Origin: Lachnospiraceae bacterium
Lineage (GTDB): Bacteria > Bacillota > Clostridia > Lachnospirales > Lachnospiraceae
Reading direction: 5' to 3'
Length of the DNA stretch: 46,731 bases
NCBI GenBank assembly: GCA_017462755.1
Contig: JAFTQM010000046.1
Coordinates: 1 to 46,731 of the forward strand
The position numbers were made by a program, and so were the translations under genes. Positions 24,906 to 34,650 of this stretch are shown here, one piece after another. Numbering within the stretch: the first letter of the stretch is position 1; each line of letters begins with the position of its first letter. Under the pieces are notes generated by a model. The model was given only the letters and a program-made list of their open reading frames with translations, ran no database searches and was not told the DNA's origin.

Positions 24906-24973
24906 TTATTGCGTTTATCTTTTTTATGTAGTAAGTTGGTAGTTTCTTCTCATGAAATAAGGAGTTGTACATT

Positions 24974-25016
24974 AAAGTGTCCCTAAAAGTTTAACTTTTA
25001 GGGACACTTTATTTTT
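24974..25016 (+). terminator. Strong terminator after the surface lipoprotein gene
   Basis: A perfect 18-bp inverted repeat (24974-24991 with 24993-25010) starts AAAGTGTCCC, is separated by one base and is followed by ATTTTT. The gene-free stretch 24906-25212 holds only this hairpin and the attL repeat. Confidence 0.8.
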
Positions 25017-25051: not shown

Positions 25052-25147
25052 CAAAAAAAAGCACCAACCCCGGACTCGTACGTTCCAAAATTGATACCTT
25101 TCAGTGCGCGACCAGGGGCTCGAACCCTGGACACCCTGATTAAGAGT
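25052..25147. repeat. attL: left 96-bp attachment repeat with tRNA-Lys 3' fragment
   Basis: Identical to 34525-34620 except for G/A at 25078. Positions 25105-25147 are the 3' portion of a minus-strand tRNA-Lys; beyond 25147 the match to the tRNA stops, so this copy is a fragment and not a functional tRNA. Confidence 0.9.
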
Positions 25148-25212
25148 TAGGATATTTGATTTTTGCTAGTAGTCTTGAAAAAATTCTTCTGTGGTTAAAT
25201 TGGAGGCGAGAA

Positions 25213-25410
25213 ATGAAAAGATATATACCTTGTGGATGTTGTAAATGTGATTTTTCAGAAGGTCAAAGTGTGAAGTGTTGTACGGAAAATTTATGTAACA
25301 GTTATGAAGAGGCTTTTATAGTCAGTGAAACGGATAATGATAGAATTGGTTACGCTTCTTTAGAAGAATTTAATCAAGTATTTGGAACTAATTACAAAGA
25401 TAGAATTTGA
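25213..25410 (+). CDS. Small cysteine-rich protein of unknown function
   Basis: 65 residues, the first gene inside attL. The N-terminal half has seven Cys (CGCCKC, then CC and a further C), which suggests metal binding. The C-terminal half (YASLEEFNQVFGTNY) is a short acidic helix. The start at 25213 follows GGAGG; the frame upstream overlaps attL. I do not recognise the family. Confidence 0.5.
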   Translation: MKRYIPCGCCKCDFSEGQSVKCCTENLCNSYEEAFIVSETDNDRIGYASLEEFNQVFGTNYKDRI

Positions 25411-25418
25411 TATTATAA

Positions 25419-25447
25419 TTGCATAATTTGGAATAGGTTGTTATAAT
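25419..25447 (+). promoter_or_regulatory. Promoter of hicAB
   Basis: TTGCAT, a 17-bp spacer, TATAAT. The dyad ATTAT-N6-ATAAT overlaps the -35 (starting at 25412). A second TATAAT lies at about 25470. HicB-type antitoxins usually repress their own operon, so the dyad may be the operator. Confidence 0.5.
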
Positions 25448-25494
25448 AACGGTAGAGAAACGATTGATAATATAATAGATAAGGGAGTAGTAAA

Positions 25495-25743
25495 ATGCCG
25501 GCAGTAGACAAAATATTTTTTGAGGTCATGAGTGGCTCAAAGGATAACAATATCCGTTTTTCAGAATTGCAGAAGCTTCTGGAAACACTAGGCTTTAGTT
25601 GTAGAATAAAAGGCGATCATTTTATATATTATAAAAATGGTGTAGATGAAATCATAAATATTCAGCCTAGTGGCAACAAAGCTAAGCCTTATCAGGTAAA
25701 GCAAGTTAGAAATATAATCCTAAAATATCAAATGGAGGTGTAA
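25495..25743 (+). CDS. hicA: HicA-family toxin (mRNA interferase)
   Basis: 82 residues. HicA toxins are small double-stranded-RNA-binding-fold ribonucleases that cut mRNA. The segment LLETLGFSCRIKGDHFIYYK carries the Gly and His 40 of the active-site strand, and NIQPSGNKAKPYQVKQVRNII is the typical C-terminal half. It is slightly longer than the classic 60-residue form because of an N-terminal helix. It precedes hicB by 2 bp, so the pair is co-translated. It lies inside the prophage, next to attL. Confidence 0.88.
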   Translation: MPAVDKIFFEVMSGSKDNNIRFSELQKLLETLGFSCRIKGDHFIYYKNGVDEIINIQPSGNKAKPYQVKQVRNIILKYQMEV

Positions 25744-25745
25744 AA

Positions 25746-25955
25746 ATGCATAAGTATGAAAGAATTATATACTGGTCGGAAGCTGATCAGAAATTTATTG
25801 TTGAAGTTCCAGAGTTAGCAGGTTGTATGGCAGATGGTAGGACCGCTACAGAAGCATTGGAAAATGCAGAAGTTGTTATAAGTGAGTGGTTGGATATTGC
25901 CGAGGAATTAGGGCGGGAGATACCGCAGCCAAAGGGTAAACTGATGTATGCGTGA
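25746..25955 (+). CDS. hicB: HicB-family antitoxin
   Basis: 69 residues with the HicB partial RNase H-like fold: YERIIYWSEADQKFIVEVPELAGCMADGRT, here described by the key part VEVPELAGCMADG, then TEALENAEVVISEWLDIA. There is no C-terminal DNA-binding domain, which makes it a short HicB. It neutralises HicA by direct binding. The ATG follows GGAGG at the end of hicA, and a terminator follows at 25984. Confidence 0.88.
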   Translation: MHKYERIIYWSEADQKFIVEVPELAGCMADGRTATEALENAEVVISEWLDIAEELGREIPQPKGKLMYA

Positions 25956-25983
25956 TAAGCTGAAAAATTGAAAAGTAAAACAT

Positions 25984-26017
25984 AGCCGCCATTGTAGCCA
26001 GCAATGACGGCTTTTTT
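25984..26017 (+). terminator. Terminator of hicAB
   Basis: AGCCGCCATTG and CAATGACGGCT form a stem with one mismatch, followed by six T. It separates hicAB from the convergent XRE gene. Confidence 0.8.
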
Positions 26018-26023
26018 GTAGTG

Positions 26024-26365
26024 TTAGGCGAATGGTTTCAATTCTTCATCCTTCTGTGCCTGCTCCTTCCGGCTTCTTCTAGCTTCCAGTTCCGCAACAC
26101 TAATGATGGTTATTTTACCGTCAGCATCAGATGCGCGGTAGTTATCTATTAGCTCAGTTTCTGATGGTTCCATTGCATTTTCACGTTCAAGTAGCCAATC
26201 GACAGATACATGCAATTCATTGGCTATTAGTTTAAGGGTTTCGCCTTTCGGTATTTGTTTTTTCCAGTTTGTATAATTAGCATTTGGCATATCAAGTTTT
26301 TTGCATAAAGCATTTCCTGAAATGTTGTTCCGTTTCAATGCTTCATTGAGTCGATCTATAAACAA
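26024..26365 (-). CDS. XRE-family prophage repressor candidate
   Basis: 113 residues with an N-terminal Cro/CI-type HTH: FIDRLNEALKRNNISGNALCKKL, with the recognition part MPNANYTNWKKQIPKGETL and helix IANELHVSVDWLL (about 46-58). The charged C-terminal half (RASDADGKI to EELKPFA) has no protease domain, so control by RecA cleavage is unlikely. It is divergent from the phage structural operon across a 194-bp region with paired operators, the layout of a lysogeny switch. Strong site AAAGGAGG precedes ATG. Confidence 0.85.
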   Translation of the reverse strand: MFIDRLNEALKRNNISGNALCKKLDMPNANYTNWKKQIPKGETLKLIANELHVSVDWLLERENAMEPSETELIDNYRASDADGKITIISVAELEARRSRKEQAQKDEELKPFA

Positions 26366-26380
26366 AATGCCCTCCTTTTG

Positions 26381-26458
26381 CTAAGTTAAATTAGTATCTA
26401 ATAGTTGACATACTAAATAAAATGTGATAAATTTAGAAAGGGTACTAAGTTAAATTAG
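26381..26458 (+). promoter_or_regulatory. Lysogeny-switch region: paired operators and rightward promoter
   Basis: The imperfect palindrome CTAAGTTAAATTAG occurs at 26381-26394 and again at 26445-26458, 64 bp apart. TTAGTAT and ATACTAA (26391-26397 and 26410-26416) form another dyad. Between them lies a rightward promoter, TTGACA (26405-26410), a 17-bp spacer, TAAATT (26428-26433). A repressor bound to both sites would bracket it. The rest of 26366-26559 shows no gene. Confidence 0.65.
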
Positions 26459-26559
26459 CATACTATTGAATTTAAGTTTTACCTATCATTTTACCAAAAA
26501 AACCGATTTAAGACAAGTCCCGGGGCTCGGTGGAGCAGGGCAGAAAGTGAGGTTAGTGG

Positions 26560-27078
26560 ATGAAAGTCGATGAAAAATTTCCCCGGATAGAATATGGAAG
26601 TGATGGCATGATGAAACTGGCAATGAAGTATCATCAGGAGTTTTGTTTCCAGAAGGGGACTCGTGTTCAGTGTTGCTGCCATACTGTAAATGGCGTTATG
26701 ACAAGTGAGACCTTGATTTTACGGAATCAGCGGAAGGAGTATGTTTTTTCGGTTTCTCATAGAGGGTATAGGTTGACAATAGATGGTTATGTTAACGGAA
26801 TGCCATTTTCGCATAAAGTACACTGGTTTCATAAAACAGGCTGTCCGGTAGTATTACCAGAAGATTGTCCTTATGAGGAATTAGATCAGGATATAGAAAT
26901 TAATAAAGATTACATGGAGGATTTGAAGTTTATCGTTGATTTATGGGCGAAAGCTGGTCGTCCTTTGGATGTTGAAATGCTAGTAAACGATGGTGTTGAT
27001 ATGTTCATCAGCTCTTTCTACAAGAATAACAAAGGCTATAAGCGGATTTCAAAACCGGGCTGCCATAAGGAGGTGTGA
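26560..27078 (+). CDS. Prophage protein of unknown function
   Basis: 172 residues, soluble, mixed charge. A CCCH cluster lies near residue 40 (GTRVQCCCHTVNG), then strand-rich segments (LILRNQRKEYVFSVSHRGYR) and an acidic C-terminal part with YEELDQDIEINKDY. I do not recognise a family. It is first in the rightward operon, right after the switch region. The start codon is preceded by a GAGG-like site. It could be an early regulator or replication helper; this is only positional inference. Confidence 0.6.
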   Translation: MKVDEKFPRIEYGSDGMMKLAMKYHQEFCFQKGTRVQCCCHTVNGVMTSETLILRNQRKEYVFSVSHRGYRLTIDGYVNGMPFSHKVHWFHKTGCPVVLPEDCPYEELDQDIEINKDYMEDLKFIVDLWAKAGRPLDVEMLVNDGVDMFISSFYKNNKGYKRISKPGCHKEV

Positions 27079-27080
27079 GG

Positions 27081-27230
27081 ATGGAAACATTAAGAATTGT
27101 ATGTTGTAGCATTACCAGCTTCCTGATTGTTGCGGATGTTCTTTTGTATATGTGTGACCGCAAAAGGAAAAAACAGCAGCGTGAAGAACAGCAGAAGGAG
27201 GATGCCAGTAATGGATGGATTACCAAATAA
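27081..27230 (+). CDS. Small single-span membrane protein
   Basis: 49 residues, below the usual size cutoff but with a strong site (AAGGAGG) and tight packing: 2 bp after the previous stop and overlapping the next gene by 20 bp. One membrane helix (about 5-24, IVCCSITSFLIVADVLLYM) is followed by a very basic, Gln/Glu-rich tail (CDRKRKKQQREEQQKE). Function unknown. Confidence 0.6.
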   Translation: METLRIVCCSITSFLIVADVLLYMCDRKRKKQQREEQQKEDASNGWITK

Positions 27231-27450
27231 CTCCGGGAAAGTATATTCCGTCCGGGATTTGTCCGGAAGAATCATATGCTGCTGCATGGATTCAGAGATT
27301 GCTTGTGCAGATGCAATGATTATTGCAGGAGCATTGAAAGAACGATATCGAGAAAAAGCTTTTTTTGTGTATGTGGATAATGAAATTTACCGTGTGTTTC
27401 CGGCATATGAAGGGGAAGAAAGGTTTCCCAGCGATTTTATCAATTGTTAA
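27211..27450 (+). CDS. Small prophage protein of unknown function
   Basis: 79 residues. ATG at 27211 was chosen because GGAGG lies 9 bp upstream; an ATG at 27202 has the site too close. It has a beta-rich start (GKVYSVRDLSGRIICCCM), a helix (ACADAMIIAGALKERY) and a second strand region (FFVYVDNEIYRVFP). Its start overlaps the preceding gene, indicating coupling. No family recognised. Confidence 0.55.
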   Translation: MDGLPNNSGKVYSVRDLSGRIICCCMDSEIACADAMIIAGALKERYREKAFFVYVDNEIYRVFPAYEGEERFPSDFINC

Positions 27451-27531
27451 AGCGTTCCCGAGCTGCGGGTTGCTATATGAAATGAAAATGCTGTGCTATC
27501 GGCTGGTACGGGCAGAAAGTGAGGAAAAAAT

Positions 27532-27825
27532 ATGGATGCAAAGGTAACAATCTTACACGCCAAGCCATGGAGTATGGTGGATGAGGTAACAAAGCAGGAG
27601 AGAAGTGGAGTATCGGTTCAGTATATATTATCGGATTCGCTTGCTCCAAATGTGGATGCAGATACCGGAGAGCTTGGGTATGCAGTAACAAAGGAAAGCA
27701 TATCTGTAGAAGCTGCCAAAGCTCTGGTAGAGGTTCCGGGCTTGTATGATGCGGAAATGGTGCTTCGCGGTAAATCCGGAAAGAACGTGCTGGTTCTTGG
27801 TACGCTTAAATTTGCAGGCAAGTAA
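27532..27825 (+). CDS. Candidate phage ssDNA-binding protein
   Basis: 97 residues, beta-rich (VTILHAKPWSM, VSVQYILSDS, GKNVLVLGTLKFAGK), with no signal or membrane segment. In filamentous phages a small all-beta ssDNA-binding protein (pV type) is encoded just upstream of the coat genes, and this gene has that place, size and strand content. No sequence motif proves it. A GTGAGG site precedes ATG. Confidence 0.5.
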   Translation: MDAKVTILHAKPWSMVDEVTKQERSGVSVQYILSDSLAPNVDADTGELGYAVTKESISVEAAKALVEVPGLYDAEMVLRGKSGKNVLVLGTLKFAGK

Positions 27826-27941
27826 TTTTTTTGATTTTTCATACTTTTAGGCTCCTGCAGAGCTGCGGGGGCTGACCATAACCAGCGGAAACGCTGTTTA
27901 AAATATGGTACGTCGTAGGATTACGGCAGACACAATGCAAT

Positions 27942-27991
27942 GCAGCATCCCGGGATATGCTGCTATCAAAACATATGCTGCAGGACGCAGC
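27942..27991 (+). promoter_or_regulatory. Two hairpins in the leader of the major coat gene
   Basis: GCAGCAT/ATGCTGC (27942-27963) and GCTGC/GCAGC (27977-27991) lie within 65 bp upstream of the coat start. They lack a T-run and may be mRNA processing or stability signals, consistent with the need for high coat expression. Confidence 0.4.
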
Positions 27992-28005
27992 AGAGAGGAG
28001 AAATT

Positions 28006-28377
28006 ATGTTTTTCAAGAAGAAGGAAGTAGCAGCTCCGGAAGGAAATATCCCGGAGAACTGCACCGAAACTGAAAGCTGCAATGAAAGCTGCAGCACCAA
28101 GAAACCGCGCAAAGGTATGTTTGCAAAGCTGAAGGTAATGATGGCAGCGTTCGCACTCATGCTGGTAGCTTCCGGAGTAACACCGGTATTAGCGAGTGAT
28201 ACTACAGGTACAACAGCAACAAACATTGATATGAACCTTGCAAATCAGCTGATTGAGTTGATTAAGGCAGTGAATACTCTGTTTCTTGTGTTCCCAATCA
28301 ACATCTTTCTGATTGGCTCCCTGATAATGCTTGCATTCAGAGTATTCCGTGGTGCTAAGAAAACCGCAACCAAATAA
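28006..28377 (+). CDS. Candidate major coat protein (pVIII-like) with N-terminal extension
   Basis: 123 residues. The part from about 38 on is a classic coat precursor: basic start (FAKLK), hydrophobic signal core MMAAFALMLVASGV, and a likely cleavage after VLA (residue 63). That leaves a mature peptide of about 60 residues with an acidic/polar start, one membrane helix (about 92-112) and a basic end (FRVFRGAKKTATK). This is the plan of inovirus pVIII. Unusual is the 37-residue charged, Cys-containing leader (ENCTETESCNESC) before the signal; an ATG at residue 38 exists but lacks a proper ribosome site, whereas GAGAGGAG precedes 28006. A strong terminator follows. Confidence 0.72.
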   Translation: MFFKKKEVAAPEGNIPENCTETESCNESCSTKKPRKGMFAKLKVMMAAFALMLVASGVTPVLASDTTGTTATNIDMNLANQLIELIKAVNTLFLVFPINIFLIGSLIMLAFRVFRGAKKTATK

Positions 28378-28396
28378 ATCCGGATCTGTTCCGGAA

Positions 28397-28422
28397 GGGC
28401 AGACAAACGTCTGCTCTTTTTT
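28397..28422 (+). terminator. Strong terminator directly after the coat gene
   Basis: GCAGAC-AAAC-GTCTGC followed by TCTTTTTTT. It sits 20 bp after the coat stop, the same place as the central terminator after gene VIII in M13-type phages, and would favour coat over downstream genes. Confidence 0.85.
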
Positions 28423-28450
28423 TAACCCAAAAAAGAAAGGTGTGAAAAAG

Positions 28451-29416
28451 ATGAAAAGATTATGTTGTATATTGCTGGTTGCCGCGATGCTGGTGGGGCT
28501 GCTCCCGGTGCTGGAAGCAAAGGCAGCCATTCCCTCCTATTCGGTAGATGTTGGTGGGACAGAGTTGTATATATCAACACCGTATGATACAACAACCTAC
28601 ACATTCAAGAAATTTCCGGCAGATGATAGCGTACTGTTTGTATCGGTGTATGCATATCGTTCGACATTTATAAGGTTAGAAGTGTTCGAATGTGAGCGAA
28701 CTTACTGGGAGAATAATGTAGACAAAACCTTTTATTATTATACATCCGGTGATTTGGAGGGGCAAATTGCAGGCTTAGGTATGTCGTTTCCCTATTACAT
28801 TACTTATTCTTATTTCGATAGTTATGCTGCTTCTGAAAATACTTCTTCTGGATGGACTCATTATTCTGGTAATATGGGGCATGGCGTGACTGCTCAATTT
28901 AGTGACGAAAAAGAATATGGCTATTCCTACATCGCCTACTGCTCCGAGGATATCTATGACGGCGATACTCTTATTTACGATTCCCCGGCGAATAATGAAG
29001 TAGAACCTACCTACGTCTATGATTCGGAGAATCTGGAGGATATTGAAGATTTGACAATTAAGTTAGTCGGCGTGGATGAGCTGATTGATGCTATAACATA
29101 TAACAATTATTATGCTAGGGATAGTGATAATCCTGTTGATTTAAATTCAAATGTTTGGGGACTGGGTAATTTTATTACATGGGAATATCGTGGAATAACT
29201 GGTGAAGCTACAGGACTTGAAGGATTGCTTGTTTCTTCGAAAAATCATAGGTGTGTGAAATTGGATGTTGAAGCAAAATTGAAGATTGATAGTAATACAA
29301 CAAAAACTTTGAAGTATACGATTTCAGATTATGATGATTTCATGGGTGTGGGACTTGGAAATAGAAAAGTTTCATTTCATGATTTAGGTGTTTTTTTTGA
29401 AAGAAGCTTATCCTGA
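28451..29416 (+). CDS. Candidate phage adsorption protein, N-terminal part (frameshifted)
   Basis: 321 residues as read. A signal peptide (KRLCCILLVAAMLVGLLPVL, cut near EAKA) is followed by a secreted domain rich in Tyr, Ser and Asp, with many beta-strand patterns. It lies between the coat gene and the small membrane proteins, the place of pIII in filamentous phages. The frame ends at TGA shortly after a T8 run (29391-29398). One T fewer would fuse it to the frame at 29388-29870 (GVFLKEAYPEYVT junction), giving a 472-residue protein with a C-terminal anchor. This could be mutation, phase variation or sequencing error. The start follows AAAGGTG. Confidence 0.65.
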   Translation: MKRLCCILLVAAMLVGLLPVLEAKAAIPSYSVDVGGTELYISTPYDTTTYTFKKFPADDSVLFVSVYAYRSTFIRLEVFECERTYWENNVDKTFYYYTSGDLEGQIAGLGMSFPYYITYSYFDSYAASENTSSGWTHYSGNMGHGVTAQFSDEKEYGYSYIAYCSEDIYDGDTLIYDSPANNEVEPTYVYDSENLEDIEDLTIKLVGVDELIDAITYNNYYARDSDNPVDLNSNVWGLGNFITWEYRGITGEATGLEGLLVSSKNHRCVKLDVEAKLKIDSNTTKTLKYTISDYDDFMGVGLGNRKVSFHDLGVFFERSLS

Positions 29417-29870
29417 GTATGTGACCGACTTTCCAACGCAGTTGAAGCAACTGACCTATTACCTGACTCCATTCTATTACGACGCGGATGCAGCGGAATA
29501 CCATTACGGTAATACCAGCCGGATTACCCAGAACGTATCCTCTGCCCTTGCCGATTACTCCGGCGATGAATGGGATGATAATGATGATGGCTATCTTGTA
29601 GAAGATGATGACCCTTTATCTACCGGTAATGTTTTAAACTTTTTTAATAATATCGGTGAATCAATTAAAACCGTAATCAACTGGTTCAAAGATGTGATTA
29701 ACGATGCGTTTCGCCTTATATCCTATGTCGGTCAGGTACCGGCTTTGTTATCTAGTTTTATGCCTTTTATACCTGAAGAATTATGGTCTTTGATTGGGAT
29801 AGGTCTTTTCTTATATTTCGCTCCGGCACTTCTCGCAGGAATTCGAAATCTGCTTAAGTTAGGAGGTTAA
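29388..29870 (+). CDS. Candidate phage adsorption protein, C-terminal part (frameshifted)
   Basis: The frame is open from 29388 but the real upstream partner is the gene at 28451. It starts within the T8 run and has no ribosome site, so it is probably not translated alone. It carries a soluble stretch (YPEYVTDFPTQLKQLTYYLT), an acidic linker (GDEWDDNDDGYLVEDDD), an amphipathic region, and a C-terminal membrane anchor (ELWSLIGIGLFLYFAPALL) with a basic tail. That matches the anchor end of pIII-like proteins. Confidence 0.55.
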   Translation: MFFLKEAYPEYVTDFPTQLKQLTYYLTPFYYDADAAEYHYGNTSRITQNVSSALADYSGDEWDDNDDGYLVEDDDPLSTGNVLNFFNNIGESIKTVINWFKDVINDAFRLISYVGQVPALLSSFMPFIPEELWSLIGIGLFLYFAPALLAGIRNLLKLGG

Positions 29871-29871
29871 C

Positions 29872-30039
29872 ATGGAAGTATTCGGCACTCTTTTTGAAAT
29901 CTGCATGGGAATCCTTCATATCGAAATCCCGATAGCCGGTTATCAGATAACCTTATTCAACCTTCTGGTATACACCGTAATTGCCTATCTGCTGCTCCGG
30001 CTACTATTCGCACTATTTAATCGACAGGGGGACGACTAA
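29872..30039 (+). CDS. Small phage membrane protein
   Basis: 55 residues with a long hydrophobic stretch (about 20-47, YQITLFNLLVYTVIAYLLL). A strong AGGAGG site precedes ATG directly after the adsorption-gene stop, and its stop is 3 bp before the next start. Size and place fit a minor coat (pVII/pIX type) or assembly protein. No sequence match is claimed. Confidence 0.6.
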   Translation: MEVFGTLFEICMGILHIEIPIAGYQITLFNLLVYTVIAYLLLRLLFALFNRQGDD

Positions 30040-30042
30040 AAA

Positions 30043-30438
30043 ATGAAAAAACTATTCTTTCTCACACTGCTCCTGCTGCTCTGTTCTCTTGTGACTCCGG
30101 TATCAGCATCAGCTGCAGAACTGATTCCGACTCCGGAGCCGGAAATAACCGAAGCTGCAGAACCGGATGCAACGTCGGTACCAACCGAAGCTCCGGAGGA
30201 TGCAGATGCAACGCCGGTACCGGAAGAACCAAAACCAACTGCAACTCCGGTACCGCAACCGGATTGGATTGCATATACGGATGCTATGCTGGAAGCTCAG
30301 GCATTTTATACAGAACACCTGGAAGAAGCAAAAGAGCTGCAGGAACTCCTGCAGGACGCGTGGAATCAAATTCGGTTTTGGGCAACTGCAATCGCAGCCT
30401 TTTGGTTTTCGAAAAAATCATGGCGGGGGGTGGACTAA
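30043..30438 (+). CDS. Secreted Pro/Glu-rich phage membrane protein
   Basis: 131 residues. A signal peptide (KKLFFLTLLLLLCSLVTPVSA) is followed by a low-complexity Pro/Thr/Glu region (about 26-75), a helical part (ALEAQAFYTEHLEEAKELQEL type) and a hydrophobic segment near the end (IRFWATAIAAFWF). It could be a minor virion protein. Its low-complexity stretch resembles the insert in the Zot-like protein nearby. It is tightly packed between two small genes. Confidence 0.65.
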   Translation: MKKLFFLTLLLLLCSLVTPVSASAAELIPTPEPEITEAAEPDATSVPTEAPEDADATPVPEEPKPTATPVPQPDWIAYTDAMLEAQAFYTEHLEEAKELQELLQDAWNQIRFWATAIAAFWFSKKSWRGVD

Positions 30439-30591
30439 TTGGACAGCTTAAACTACATCATCAATCTTATAACCCAAGGCTCTGTAGAGTTGACGCTGGA
30501 GGTACAGCTGAGATTCTTCTTTGTCGTGTTTATCTTGGGTGGACTATTCAATATTGTAAAGCAAATTATTAACATGTGCCGGAGGATATAG
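30439..30591 (+). CDS. Small phage membrane protein (TTG start)
   Basis: 50 residues if TTG at 30439 is used, immediately after the previous TAA. A purine-rich GCGGGGGG lies about 8 bp upstream. It has one membrane helix (about 26-40, FFFVVFILGGLFNIV) with a basic tail (KQIINMCRR). The frame ends 3 bp before the Zot-like gene. Like the gene at 29872, it may be a minor coat or assembly factor. It is short, with a non-ATG start, so the call is moderate. Confidence 0.45.
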   Translation: MDSLNYIINLITQGSVELTLEVQLRFFFVVFILGGLFNIVKQIINMCRRI

Positions 30592-30594
30592 CCT

Positions 30595-31617
30595 ATGCAA
30601 ATATTATTCACAATTACAATGCTTGCCCTTGCATATTTCGACTCCAGCAAGAGCCTCATCTATCTGGCAGCACTCGTTGCGGCATGGTGTATCAAAATCG
30701 TAAACTGCATTGTTGCCAACCTGCACCGGGTAGCCTTCTACTCCGTGAAGGATATCATCATGTACTTTGTGCTGCAGAAATGGAAGGAATTCGATTTGTA
30801 CGGCATTGATATGTTTGTTGCAATGTTTGGCAAAGGCAAAACTCTTAGCATGACGCATCGTGCCCGGCAAATCTACGCTCAGTACGGCGATAGTGTGAAA
30901 TTCCTCTCTAACTATCATTTGAACGGAATCCCCTACACGCCGTTAACGAATTTTAATCAGCTGGTCGACCTTGGCGCGGATCAGGACGAAGAGGAAGAAG
31001 CTGCAGCGGAAAATCCTCCGGATAATGTAACACCGGAAACTGCTCCTACAGAAGAACCGGATAACCCGGTTGAATCCGTTTCCGATCCGGAAGCGATTCA
31101 GGAACCCGCAGAGGAAGCTGCAGAACAGCCAAAGAAGAAAAAGAAAATTGTAGGCTATGTCGTGCTGCTGGATGAAATCTCGTCGGTGCTCTCCCATCGA
31201 AATTTCTCCAGCTTCCCTCTCGAGATGCTCTCGATGCTCTGCCAGCAACGCAAACGTCGGATTTACATTATGTGCAGCGCCCAGCGTTTTTTCATGGTAG
31301 ATAAGATATTCCGGGGAATTACAACCCGCGTAATCATCTGCGATAAGGTGTGGCGCTTTGTACATAACTCCTACTTCGATGCCTGGGATTATGAGAATGC
31401 TACAACAACCAGCATCCTGCAGCGGCTCGGGCATAGCTGGTGGTTCTGCCGGGATAAGGATTATGCAGCTTATGATACCAGTGAAATGATTACCCGGTCT
31501 GCAGCTGCAGATTTCATATCCAACGAAGAAGCTATTGTCCGTAAAGGCTTGGATGCCGGACTGGTATGCAATGAAGCTGCCATAAAGCATAAAAAACGTA
31601 CAAAGAAATCGAAATAA
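30595..31617 (+). CDS. Zot/pI-like filamentous phage assembly ATPase
   Basis: 340 residues. Walker A is GKGKT at 79-83 within MFVAMFGKGKTLSMT, and Walker B is VVLLDE at 189-194. The motif SAQRFFMVDKIFRGITTR follows, as in Zot/pI proteins, which extrude filamentous virions through the membrane. Two membrane-like segments lie at the N terminus (about 5-16 and 21-42), before the ATPase, whereas M13 pI has its membrane span after the ATPase. An acidic, Pro-rich insert (about 128-185, ending in a lysine run) separates Walker A and B. This gene is the hallmark that marks the element as inovirus-like. Confidence 0.85.
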   Translation: MQILFTITMLALAYFDSSKSLIYLAALVAAWCIKIVNCIVANLHRVAFYSVKDIIMYFVLQKWKEFDLYGIDMFVAMFGKGKTLSMTHRARQIYAQYGDSVKFLSNYHLNGIPYTPLTNFNQLVDLGADQDEEEEAAAENPPDNVTPETAPTEEPDNPVESVSDPEAIQEPAEEAAEQPKKKKKIVGYVVLLDEISSVLSHRNFSSFPLEMLSMLCQQRKRRIYIMCSAQRFFMVDKIFRGITTRVIICDKVWRFVHNSYFDAWDYENATTTSILQRLGHSWWFCRDKDYAAYDTSEMITRSAAADFISNEEAIVRKGLDAGLVCNEAAIKHKKRTKKSK

Positions 31618-31638
31618 TAAAAGAAACGAGGTGATACT

Positions 31639-33243
31639 GTGATAGATCCGGAATGGTTCAGTAAAAAAGAGAAAAAGTTTTTACATAATATCGATACCTT
31701 CTATTTCAGTATCAAGCTTGAAGAAGATTTTACTCGTAATTCAACCGATCCGGTTGTGGCACGCTTCCGCCGGATGATAGAACGCTACAAAAATACAGAT
31801 GCAGATTTTATTCCATTTATGGAAGTGCCATACTCTACAGAAGTGGAATACGTCTATGGCTGCTTTGATAGCTATTACAACTTTATCCTTCATGTAAAAG
31901 AGCAGTTTGATATCTGCATTGCTCCGGTAGTTCCTCCGGCATCCAGCGGAATTGCTTCGGTTACTTCCGAAATCATTGTAAAGATTCATGCCCGGATGCT
32001 CTGGGAGCTGGGAGCAACCCTTGCCTTCAAGCAAACGTATGAATATGTAAAATCGCTTTGCGAGCATTATCATCTTACAATTAAAGAGGTAAAAGAGAAT
32101 CGTTGTGATTTCTGCTGGCATACGAATGCGTTGCAGGACCCGGAAACCTATTTCCGCATTGATAACTTTTCAGAAATGCAGGTTTCCCGGTTCAAGGGCG
32201 TAAATTATCATTATAAGCTTTTGAATAAAAGAAAGCTGAAGGGTGGAAAGCGGTATCAGAAATCAGCAGAGCTGGAAAGAGAACCGGAACGGCACCGGGC
32301 GAAGCCGGAATGCTTCGAGGAACCGGAAAAACCATATGAGTGGGATTATTTAGCACTTGGCCGTAGAGGAGATAAGTGCTTTGTTCGCGTGTACTTAAAA
32401 ACAAAAGAAGTAATAGAGATGCATTATAAAGAATGGTTTCTCTACACATGGTACTATCAGGGCTTAATCTCGAAATATGATCTCTACGTTCTGGAGAAAG
32501 CCTACAAAGAAAAGCGCTGGAGCTATTGTGATATTGCCAGGCTGCAGTTCGCCCTGGAGTATGATGATTCGTTATCTGCAGCAGCACGCTCGCTCATCTG
32601 CTCGCACATCGAAGCAAAAACGCCGGATTATGCATCCATTGCTGCGCTCGCTAACAAATATACGCCGAAGCTTACCAAGATAATCAATGTGGAATTTCAG
32701 GTAATGCGCCGCATGAGCAAAAGCTTTAAATTACTCCCGCCGAAGGAGAATCAGGGAGAAGCAAAGCGTATCTTTGATTTTCTGGACGATCGTCGCCGGA
32801 TTACGGAATATCTCACACATGATACCCTGCGGCTGGTTCGTCCGGGTAATGATTGCAATACCTCCCGGTCAGAATATACGGATTTCTGGCGCAGGTTGCG
32901 TGGAACAAAAATAGTGGATGTCGTTCTAAACAAGCATCAGCTGAAGCTTGTCCGGGATTATTCATCAAAGTTAAATATGGAGATCCGGAAAACAACGGCA
33001 GTACGAGCCGTTTCAAACTTCGCCTTGCAGTTGAAACGAAATCCGGATGCTACGATTTATGAGGATGCAGCGGAACTGCTGGCCATCCTGAATGATAACG
33101 ATTTTGAGAAATTATACAAATATAAAAATAAGCGCTATAGGCAGCTGCGCCCGCCGGAAGAGGATCCTCTGGTATCGCTTACGCTGCAGCGTAATGTTAA
33201 AATCCTACCGGATGAAAGTGGGGAATTTTATGAGAATACATGA
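31639..33243 (+). CDS. Rolling-circle-type replication initiation protein (Rep_trans-like)
   Basis: 534 residues. The pattern fits the PF02486 type of phage and plasmid initiators. There is an RxD element (R155, D157 in ENRCDFCWHTN), then YLALGRRGDKCFVRVYLKTKEVIE with R250, K254 and E257, the usual R-x-Y-x-K-x-x-E core. Helical segments follow to the end. Such proteins nick a double-strand origin and start rolling-circle replication. It starts with GTG behind GAGGTGAT and overlaps the integrase gene by 14 bp. Longer than most relatives, and the catalytic Tyr is not assigned. Confidence 0.7.
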   Translation: MIDPEWFSKKEKKFLHNIDTFYFSIKLEEDFTRNSTDPVVARFRRMIERYKNTDADFIPFMEVPYSTEVEYVYGCFDSYYNFILHVKEQFDICIAPVVPPASSGIASVTSEIIVKIHARMLWELGATLAFKQTYEYVKSLCEHYHLTIKEVKENRCDFCWHTNALQDPETYFRIDNFSEMQVSRFKGVNYHYKLLNKRKLKGGKRYQKSAELEREPERHRAKPECFEEPEKPYEWDYLALGRRGDKCFVRVYLKTKEVIEMHYKEWFLYTWYYQGLISKYDLYVLEKAYKEKRWSYCDIARLQFALEYDDSLSAAARSLICSHIEAKTPDYASIAALANKYTPKLTKIINVEFQVMRRMSKSFKLLPPKENQGEAKRIFDFLDDRRRITEYLTHDTLRLVRPGNDCNTSRSEYTDFWRRLRGTKIVDVVLNKHQLKLVRDYSSKLNMEIRKTTAVRAVSNFALQLKRNPDATIYEDAAELLAILNDNDFEKLYKYKNKRYRQLRPPEEDPLVSLTLQRNVKILPDESGEFYENT

Positions 33244-34108
33244 TTCGATTGAGCTTTATCTTGCTGATAAGGCTGTTTATTGTGCGCCGGATTCCGTGCG
33301 CTATTACAGAGAAGCGTTAAGTCTGTTCCTGTTCTGGTGTTCAAAGGAAGGTTACCTTCAGGTGGAGCAGCTGCAGGTGGATGTGTTGAAATCCTATGCT
33401 GCGTATCTCCGGAACACCCGGCAAATCAAAGCAACGTCCATTCACACGAATTTCCGGGCAGTGAACAATTACATACAATTCCTGATTGAGCAGGGCTTTC
33501 TGCAGAAATTCAATTATAAAATCAAACTGCCAAAGCCGGATCCTGCGCTGGTAATGCCATTAAGCAGCAGTGAGGTGCAGCAGATAATCCGCTGCATCGC
33601 ATCCAGAAACGTGAACAATATCCGGGATATGCTGCTGTTCCGGCTGATGTTGGATTGCGGGCTGCGCTCCTCCGAAGCCAGAAAGCTCACGCTCCCGGAT
33701 TTGGATATGGAAAAGAAGCTCATTAAGATAGTAGATTCGAAATTCAGCAAGTCCCGGCTCCTGCCAATGCCGGAAGTCATACATATCTTAGCGCGGCTCT
33801 ATCTCTCCGATGCTGGAAGCTGCCGAAAATATGTATTTCAGGATGCAGCCGGCTCGCCAATGAATGCAAACGCTTTGAAGCAGTTCTTTGCAAAGCTGAA
33901 GAAACGTTCCGGGGTTCCCCGGGTTCACGCCCATCTGCTCCGGCATACATTTGCAACATCCTACATGATTTCACACAGTAACATCGAATATCTGCGCCTG
34001 TACCTCGGGCATGAGGATTATGATGTAACCAAAGGATATATCCATCTGGCAAGCCAGTGCCTCCTGACGCATTATGACTGTTACCGGATTGATGGCTGCT
34101 TTGTATAA
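33230..34108 (+). CDS. Tyrosine recombinase (prophage integrase)
   Basis: 292 residues with an N-terminal SAM-like arm/core-binding domain (1-105) and a catalytic domain. The tetrad is complete: R146 in CGLRSSEA, H235-x-x-R238 in HLLRHT, H261 in LGH, and Y270 in TKGYIHL. It most likely integrates the element at the tRNA-Lys 3' end, since attR lies 417 bp downstream. It resembles small XerC-like integrases. The start at 33230 overlaps rep by 14 bp behind GTGGGG; the open frame further upstream is within rep. Confidence 0.9.
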   Translation: MRIHDSIELYLADKAVYCAPDSVRYYREALSLFLFWCSKEGYLQVEQLQVDVLKSYAAYLRNTRQIKATSIHTNFRAVNNYIQFLIEQGFLQKFNYKIKLPKPDPALVMPLSSSEVQQIIRCIASRNVNNIRDMLLFRLMLDCGLRSSEARKLTLPDLDMEKKLIKIVDSKFSKSRLLPMPEVIHILARLYLSDAGSCRKYVFQDAAGSPMNANALKQFFAKLKKRSGVPRVHAHLLRHTFATSYMISHSNIEYLRLYLGHEDYDVTKGYIHLASQCLLTHYDCYRIDGCFV

Positions 34109-34126
34109 GCTGCAGGCGGCTTTTTT
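34107..34126 (+). terminator. Terminator of the integrase gene
   Basis: AAGCTG-CAGG-CGGCTT (one G-U pair) followed by four more T, overlapping the integrase stop. Confidence 0.65.
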
Positions 34127-34159
34127 CTTAATTACCGTTTTTGCAGGTACAGCGAACAG

Positions 34160-34492
34160 AAGGACGGGCGGGAACCCATGGGCGGTTTTTTGCGGGCCCG
34201 TCCTTCCGCGTCCCTAGTGGAAAAATGAGACTAAGTTAGACACCCTGATTTTTGCAAGGTGCTTTTTTCGTCCTTGCAGTAGGGTAGAAAGTCCGGGTGT
34301 GGGTGCGGCAGTTTACTGCCGCAGCTGCACCCGGACGGAGAACAAAAAGGGCGCGAAGCGCCGGGAAATCAGCTGACCACGTCCGAGTAATACGTGGTCT
34401 ACATGTACAAGGTAAAACTTGCGCGGAGCCTTGAAAACAAAGGGTTTGACGCAAATTTCCTTTTGTTCTGAAAGCGACCTCTCAGAACAAAA
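34160..34492. other. Hairpin-rich non-coding segment of the prophage (candidate origin/packaging region)
   Basis: No convincing gene lies in 34109-34577. It holds a row of inverted repeats: AAGGACGGGC/GCCCGTCCTT (34160-34205); TGCAAGG/CCTTGCA (34253-34278); a two-part hairpin with outer arms GTCCGGGTG/CACCCGGAC and inner arms GCGGCAG/CTGCCGC (34291-34336); GGCGC/GCGCC (34350-34362); GACCACG/CGTGGTC (34375-34399); and TTTTGTTCTGA/TCAGAACAAAA (34461-34492). Filamentous phages keep their replication origins and packaging hairpin in one intergenic region, so this is the likely place for them. Confidence 0.6.
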
Positions 34493-34524
34493 TTTCGCAA
34501 ATTACAGTATTAAAGTCAGGCGCG

Positions 34525-34620
34525 CAAAAAAAAGCACCAACCCCGGACTCATACGTTCCAAAATTGATACCTTTCAGTGCGCGACCAGGGGCTCGAACCC
34601 TGGACACCCTGATTAAGAGT
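34525..34620. repeat. attR: right 96-bp attachment repeat
   Basis: Matches 25052-25147 with one mismatch. It ends inside the anticodon loop of the intact tRNA-Lys, so the crossover lies in the 3' part of the tRNA or just downstream. The tRNA stays whole on this side. Confidence 0.9.
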
Positions 34621-34650
34621 CAGGTGCTCTACCAACTGAGCTAGTCGCGC
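34578..34650 (-). tRNA. tRNA-Lys (CTT), prophage integration site
   Basis: 73 nt. The acceptor GCGCGAC pairs with GTCGCGC, the anticodon loop is CTCTTAA (anticodon CTT), and the T arm is CAGGGTTCGAGCCCCTG. Discriminator A, CCA not encoded. The promoter lies upstream at 34694-34722. The 3' half is duplicated at the left prophage end. Confidence 0.95.

Follow-up and report, generated by a model that had tools for sequence, protein, structure and literature searches.

Gram-positive gut bacteria have filamentous phages that are so far little studied, also as to their replication and their exit from a single-membrane cell. Such inoviruses have been mapped by Roux et al. (2019), who proposed six families and found an 'atypical' pI protein, with an N-terminal rather than a C-terminal transmembrane (TM) segment, in 30% of inovirus species (PMC6813254). 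Burckhardt (2023) described filaments and DNase-resistant DNA, and inovirus secretion by Gram-positive gut hosts was followed by quantitative PCR and microscopy (PMC10061712). The Enterocloster and Hungatella inoviruses of that study are mostly prophages of 6.5-8.5 kb that have pI and direct repeats; its main text uses neither the word tRNA nor the word integrase. Initiators of the pT181/Tn916 type (Rep_trans, PF02486) feature the ordered motifs N' (D), I (RxD), II (T/SxY/ExG), III (YxKxxE) and IV (W/LxRxE) (PMC5714925). Rep_trans and MOBT proteins nick at CT'AA, within a loop closed by a GC-rich hairpin stem (PMC9371924). The DNA analyzed here, hereafter the window, measures 46,731 nucleotides and is contig JAFTQM010000046.1 of a Lachnospiraceae bacterium (assembly GCA_017462755.1). 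At positions 25052-34624 it hosts a unit of about 9.5 kb which is, with high confidence, an integrated inovirus-like prophage, that is, a filamentous single-stranded DNA (ssDNA) phage. Its initial annotation stated that filamentous phages of Firmicutes are known mainly from genome mining, a view overtaken by the secretion published for gut hosts (PMC10061712).

The kind of element is already known. What appears new is a replication initiator (Rep) with ordered Rep_trans-like residues, accompanied by a conserved, covarying hairpin. With the 'atypical' inoviruses of Roux et al. the unit shares a Zot/pI ATPase with an N-terminal segment, small TM proteins, attachment (att) sites in a tRNA gene, a toxin-antitoxin pair and a monoderm host; the accessible portion of that paper does not mention the Rep/hairpin pairing of this lineage (PMC6813254). 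Gram-positive gut hosts are likewise shared with the Enterocloster and Hungatella inoviruses (PMC10061712). Identification as a prophage is based on the tRNA-Lys(CTT) site, on the genes for the integrase, Rep, the Zot/pI ATPase, small membrane proteins and a protein of coat type, and on a plan kept in relatives.

The unit is bounded by direct repeats of 100 nt (25052-25151 and 34525-34624), spaced 9,473 bp. They are 98% identical, not exact as first annotated, and the right repeat runs to 34624 rather than to 34620; the placing of an inovirus-like prophage in a tRNA-Lys gene held good, as tRNA-Lys sites recur in relatives. The left copy (attL) corresponds to a partial tRNA-Lys 3' end and its downstream flank. 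The right copy (attR) lies within an intact tRNA-Lys(CTT) gene (34577-34650, minus strand; Rfam RF00005, 69.2 bits) and its flank, and includes the 3' part of the tRNA with some 50 nt of the sequence that follows. Integrases that target tRNA genes leave the tRNA whole after integration through a repeat carrying the tRNA end. The tRNA-Lys(CTT) thus stays whole because the unit brings its own copy of that end. The tyrosine integrase (33227-34108, + strand), also proposed at first, resembles XerC/D and is identified by Pfam Phage_integrase (2.8e-32); the NCBIfam XerC and XerD matches (4e-37 and 7e-34) are below the cut-offs of those models. Of three same-genus regions taken from beside the right-flank gene, one (L097) has a tRNA-Lys next to that gene, and attL and attR of the window both map to this one place. 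No match to the left flank outside att was found in L097, and no tRNA in the other two regions. An empty integration site in L097 is indicated, not fully shown. Among the marks of inoviruses listed by Roux et al. are att repeats, 10 bp or longer, located in a tRNA gene (PMC6813254); the unit measures 9.5 kb, consists mostly of uncharacterized short genes and has its 100-nt repeats in tRNA-Lys. The whole unit has no near match (megablast) among 50,697 phage records.

Relatives were searched in one genome per species and in IMG/VR with a three-sequence Rep alignment as bait. The same Rep was found in 40 genome loci and 14 IMG/VR records (L017 to L070), several of which are one element seen twice. 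Rep proved the better bait, since a scan of IMG/VR with the single ATPase sequence yielded no confirmed relative. Two further loci, L013 and L016, enter none of the claims.

The morphogenesis ATPase is encoded at 30595-31617 (+ strand) and features one N-terminal hydrophobic segment. It was aligned to the ATPases of 18 of the 20 relatives which, within L017-L070, have a BLASTP match to it (alignment A4; L058 and L069, repeats of L018 and L052, were omitted). Identity to the window protein ranges from 19 to 59%. Walker-A residues G79, G81 and K82, and residues D193 and E194, are invariant in all 19 proteins. Pfam Zot is matched by 15 of them (best 1.8e-19), PHROG_20922 by 18, the Zot-like PHROG by 15, and the PHROG of M13 protein I by 3; the window protein itself matches PHROG_20922 at 2.1e-10. 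Compared by tblastn with the 50,697 phage records, the window ATPase gave 10 matches. The strongest (E 1e-18) carries no annotation, and the other 9, at E 3e-6 to 5e-4, are annotated as Zot. The profile of the family finds in PDB 2r2a, which we take to be the meningococcal (neisserial) Zot domain, at E 1.2e-11, the next best match being at 0.00096. By these matches the ATPase is a member of the Zot/pI family, as first annotated. In a simple hydropathy scan of the 19 proteins, 12 have a hydrophobic segment on the N-terminal side of the ATPase domain and none on its C-terminal side, and 7 have no segment. Segments placed only ahead of the domain fit the 'atypical' pI with N-terminal TM. The window protein has an acidic, proline-rich insert of about 50 residues (30990-31149), placed after Walker A and ahead of Walker B, with lysines at its end and essentially absent from the 18 aligned relatives.

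The initial annotation held that a non-Zot ATPase, with no coat-like gene in relatives, would point to a plasmid-like integrative element, whose ATPase would drive conjugation or mobilization. The generic Pfam AAA model is matched by 11 of the 19 aligned ATPases, and Rep_trans-type proteins are related to the MOBT relaxases of integrative and conjugative elements (PMC9371924), as such an element could have it. Yet the ATPase belongs to the Zot/pI family, coats occur in relatives, and Zot, pI and coat families are all matched. In addition, no conjugation protein is named among 10 window proteins scanned in Pfam and 10 scanned in PHROGs (overlapping sets), and in all 42 loci whose upstream sequence is long enough, one or more small open reading frames (ORFs) with a hydrophobic segment precede Rep, a count made with no chance control. 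A plasmid-like nature of the unit is therefore highly improbable. A conjugation-type ATPase was rejected, in view of the Zot/pI matches in Pfam, PHROGs, phage records and PDB.

Rep (31639-33243, + strand) follows the ATPase gene in the prophage. Forty of the 55 Rep loci (the window and L017-L070) were aligned (A3), the other 15 being near-duplicates, truncated or not chosen. Identity to the window protein is rather flat (27-45%), which, set against the 19-59% of the ATPase, fits the module exchange described by Roux et al. (PMC6813254). Seven of the 40 proteins match the PHROG 'replication initiation protein' (best 1.5e-6), and 5 match Pfam Rep_trans weakly (best 0.0014). The window Rep itself has no Pfam or NCBIfam family, and thus does not reach the gathering cut-off of Rep_trans (PF02486). 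Residues D19, R155, D157, G241, Y252, K254 and E257 are invariant in the 40 rows, so that motifs N', I and III are present in order. Of motif II only the G is kept; R301 and E352 are invariant, and the placing of motif IV is ambiguous. L021 has 51 residues from RxD to G, and a Pfam Rep_trans protein 52; from G to Y both have 11. A strict motif pattern (last residue E or Q) is found in 34/40 Reps and 10/10 Rep_trans proteins, versus 1/309 other ORFs; a relaxed pattern, with the N-terminal D, in 40/40 and 10/10, versus 2/309. A profile cut around the motifs aligned in register with Rep_trans at E 0.0017, a level reached by 1 of 60 shuffled profiles, and is only suggestive of kinship.

The protein may accordingly be described as Rep_trans-like in mechanism, with no claim of family membership. 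The D, RxD, G and YxKxxE residues come in the same order and with matching spacing as in pT181/Tn916-type proteins (PMC4797284, PMC5714925, PMC9371924), and the hairpin resembles a nick site; the window Rep differs in having no Pfam family, a degenerate motif II and an ambiguous motif IV, and the hairpin loop is usually GTAA, not CTAA. The rolling-circle Rep of the initial annotation stands as an initiator, by the PHROG matches in relatives; that it is of the rolling-circle type we infer. The window Rep carries an insert of about 33 residues which is absent from L011 and L015.

The non-coding region between the integrase gene and the right att (34109-34524) is highly structured. Folded as ssDNA it reaches -89 kcal/mol (z -7.3), and none of 100 shuffles is as good; a second script returned z -5.9, as compared with values from -3.0 to +1.4 for seven coding stretches of the element. 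It includes an origin-like hairpin with a conserved 3' flank (34375-34409, + strand). The stem is a perfect 8 bp (arms 34375-34382 and 34392-34399) and the loop reads CCGAGTAAT. The right arm and the 3' flank recur in relatives. A 24-nt core was scanned for in 56 Rep loci (the window, 54 relatives and one plasmid). The core was found in 46/56 loci at 6 or fewer mismatches and in 38/56 at 3 or fewer, versus 1/56 mononucleotide-shuffled and 0/56 dinucleotide-shuffled loci. The window copy has 5 mismatches; elsewhere in the window the closest site has 8. No core was found at this threshold of 6 in L017, L019, L030, L049, L052, L056, L068, L069, L070 and L085; L030 and L056 contain no upstream sequence.

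Forty of the 46 matches were aligned (A6), L029, L051, L053, L058, L063 and L065 being omitted as near-repeats. At least 5 of 6 stem pairs are formed in 36 of 39 rows (L020, out of register, was excluded from the count), as compared with 18 rows on average, and never more than 26, in 500 shuffles. Columns 17 and 23 feature G..C in 31 and C..G in 9 of the 40 rows, and no other combination; L050 and L067 keep the pairing with different stem letters. As the rows are related, these covarying changes are not independent events. The loop is GTAA in 29 rows, the window included, CTAA in 6, and a variant in 5. The conserved, covarying hairpin resembles the nick site of the pT181/Tn916 type, and is best read as a double-strand origin.

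In 38 of the 46 loci the hairpin precedes the rep start by 24-208 nt, on the strand of rep, a location that would also suit an RNA element controlling rep. The window, L021, L022 and L039 have displaced copies between the integrase gene and att, some 3 kb past the start of rep, and L059 has one 3.7 kb upstream of rep; an RNA leader of rep is not expected to act from such places, and control of rep at the RNA level is for this reason an unlikely function of the hairpin. In L048 the distance upstream of rep is 0.9 kb. In L023 and L034 the hairpin falls just within the rep ORF as called, whose start is probably set too early.

Of the record titles of the 40 genome loci, 14 name Lachnospiraceae, and the others include Clostridium symbiosum, Roseburia faecis, Lacrimispora, Hungatella, other or broader groups, and one Lysinibacillus odysseyi. 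Within 299 genomes of the family of the window the Rep alignment found 4, that of the window included, so the lineage is real, but sparse in this family. A tRNA-Lys is present in 24 of the 40 genome loci (CTT in 21, TTT in 3), only other tRNAs in 3, and none in 13, several of which are short contigs. A direct repeat overlaps tRNA-Lys in 17 of the 40, and tRNA-Pro in one more (L050). The 14 IMG/VR records are 4.5-12.4 kb long, and two of them (L061, L068) have terminal direct repeats. Replication becomes directly testable in culturable relatives, for example in Lacrimispora or Roseburia faecis, now that the Rep is named, a hairpin is proposed as nick site and the integration site is seen to recur. 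Two Hungatella metagenome-assembled genomes (L023, L028) carry relatives of the window Rep. In Lacrimispora xylanisolvens DSM 3808 (L024 and L029) and Lacrimispora amygdalina src4 (L030 and L056) Rep is found on two contigs of one genome, suggesting tandem or multiple prophages. L014 (5,000-11,800), an element from the same family, has an ATPase 33-37% identical to that of the window over two stretches, and no BLASTP match to the window Rep. Its integrase is of another type, and so is its Rep, in which an HxH-like stretch was noted by eye; morphogenesis genes thus seem to be combined with more than one kind of replication module.

The plasmid included in the hairpin scan is pCd1_4 of C. difficile (L085, NZ_CP037847.1; circular, 6,830 bp), all of whose ten annotated genes are labelled 'hypothetical protein'. 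Its Rep is 26% identical to the window Rep (E 1e-38), and features the relaxed, but not the strict, motif pattern. It also encodes a piece of a Zot/M13-pI-like ATPase (PHROG matches at 3.7e-11 and 5.7e-9), a major coat protein with signal peptide (PHROG, 3.7e-7) and an adsorption-like protein. It differs from the prophage in being filed as a circular plasmid, and in lacking the hairpin core at 6 or fewer mismatches. By gene content pCd1_4 is probably an episomal filamentous phage. The C. difficile Rep relative matches, at E 4e-6 to 1e-4, four plasmid proteins of Bacillus and Paenibacillus that are annotated 'replication initiation protein'. A second small C. difficile plasmid (NZ_ON887052.1, 6,499 bp), seen as a Rep match only, has a Rep 91% identical to that of pCd1_4. 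Hornung (2019) reported a Zot ORF on the pCD-ECE1 family, of similar size, and in its accessible portion does not call it a phage; the same paper found BlaR1/BlaI genes on most plasmids of the pCD6 family (PMC6807378). A link of pCd1_4 to pCD6, suggested by size, was dropped, as no BlaR1/BlaI is named among its ten genes, which is weak ground. In the accessible portion of the literature, subscription papers and supplements aside, the nearest reports are Roux et al. (2019) and Burckhardt (2023), and neither the pairing of this Rep with the hairpin nor a phage nature of pCd1_4 was found described.

These data would accommodate a broader proposal, which we hold to be evenly balanced. A lineage of Gram-positive filamentous phages would use a divergent rolling-circle initiator of the pT181/Tn916 type and a portable hairpin origin, which would have moved between two sites, upstream of rep and beside att; it would reside mostly in tRNA-Lys, and its episomal C. 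difficile members would pass as plasmids, one replication unit being common to the worlds of phages, plasmids and conjugative elements. Rep plus hairpin would provide a simple marker for more such phages, circles filed as plasmids included.

The coat-like gene of the prophage (28003-28377, + strand) encodes a protein with two hydrophobic segments, read as a signal peptide and one TM segment, as in the short structural proteins that Roux et al. count among inovirus marks (PMC6813254). Its mature part is 31% identical over 51 aa to a 59-aa coat-like protein of L039 (E 2e-7). Of 10 coats picked by eye after the scan of small ORFs, 7 match the PHROG 'major coat protein' at E of 0.1 or less, and those of the window, L039 and L018 do not. 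The coat of the initial annotation is kept as a major coat-like protein with leader. Downstream, an adsorption-protein-like gene is split in two. The N-terminal part (28451-29416, + strand) has a signal-like segment and stops early; the C-terminal part (29388-29870, + strand), in another frame, ends with a hydrophobic segment. The two frames meet at a run of 8 T (about 29391-29398). The split may stem from an error, from a mutation or from recoding.

Several results weigh against a working inovirus, or against the family assignments on which the prophage reading draws. Taken by itself, the window ATPase has no Pfam match with E of 0.1 or less, and the Pfam Zot model found nothing in the genome of the window; the 18 relatives aligned to it were chosen by BLASTP match, so that the ATPases of other loci are outside the test. 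One Pfam Rep_trans match, that of L021 (E 0.019), was examined in place, and covers residues 365-401, outside the motif region; the whole Rep profile, compared by hhalign with ten Rep_trans proteins, gave no significant alignment (probability 3%). The window coat alone matches no coat family, and L039 supplies its sole BLASTP relative among the compared loci. The two pieces of the adsorption-like gene, searched separately, have no BLASTP relative beyond the genome of the window, and the split itself argues against a functional phage.

If the split is a true mutation, the prophage is decaying: the copy would be non-infective, and may still replicate and secrete non-infectious threads. This is a serious possibility, somewhat short of an even chance. 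In its favour, two overlapping frames meet at the 8-T run, and L011 has at the same place in the gene order a single ORF of 447 aa, which has no detectable similarity to the adsorption-like gene of the window. On the other side, the remaining main genes are open, the att repeats are still 98% identical, and a draft genome of 99 contigs, 81.7% complete, can carry homopolymer errors. The unit was first described as complete-looking; the split leaves its completeness uncertain.

A life cycle can be proposed for the integrated prophage. An RstR-like repressor, bound at two operator-like repeats around a promoter, would hold the prophage quiet. The integrase would excise a circle, and Rep would nick the hairpin at 34375-34399, yielding single strands by rolling circle. 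A 97-aa protein would coat the single strand, and the membrane ATPase would then feed it through the single membrane, swapping the 97-aa protein for coat, with no need of a secretin. The Pfam and PHROG scans of window proteins named no secretin, as expected in a single-membrane host. Particles, if made, may not infect, given the split adsorption-like gene, unless the split is an assembly error.

The putative control region is at the left end. The repressor gene is divergent (26024-26365, - strand) and encodes an RstR/CI-like helix-turn-helix protein, of which NCBIfam phage_RstR is the closest family (1.1e-7, below cut-off; Pfam HTH_3 1e-4, just below cut-off). The operator-like repeat, an imperfect palindrome (CTAAGTTAAATTAG), is found exact in two places of the window (26381-26397 and 26445-26461). 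Searched as a 14-nt palindrome, it gave 4 matches at 2 or fewer mismatches, which are both strands of the two places, versus 0.57 expected; none of 100 shuffles had 4. Between the repeats lies a promoter-like site (TTGACA-17-TAAATT, with TG ahead of the second hexamer; 26405-26433, + strand), a consensus match of which the region has 28, versus 20.1 expected. The 97-aa protein (27532-27825, + strand) has BLASTP relatives in 24 loci, and is by position a candidate ssDNA-binding protein; its family alignment (A7) found no relative in PDB, so the role gains no support from solved structures.

The other genes are all on the + strand. Three lie between the adsorption-like gene and the ATPase gene. 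A 55-aa membrane protein (29872-30039) is a candidate minor coat, 30% identical to a 52-aa protein upstream of the ATPase in L014 (E 2e-4). The next two are a 131-aa protein with a signal-like segment (30043-30438) and a 50-aa membrane protein (30439-30591). Next to the left att, an ORF of 84 aa with no assigned role (25156-25410), called mechanically, has a weak PHROG match (0.0018). It is followed by a HicA-like toxin (25495-25743; Pfam HicA_toxin, 4.3e-7) and a HicB-like antitoxin (25746-25955; Pfam HicB_lk_antitox, 1.1e-7), both above cut-off. A 172-aa orphan protein (26560-27078) has no match in Pfam, PHROGs, NCBIfam or PADLOC, and no BLASTP relative among the compared loci. Just outside the left att, a perfect 19-nt inverted repeat with a loop of 1 nt (24973-25011) is possibly the terminator of the flanking gene.

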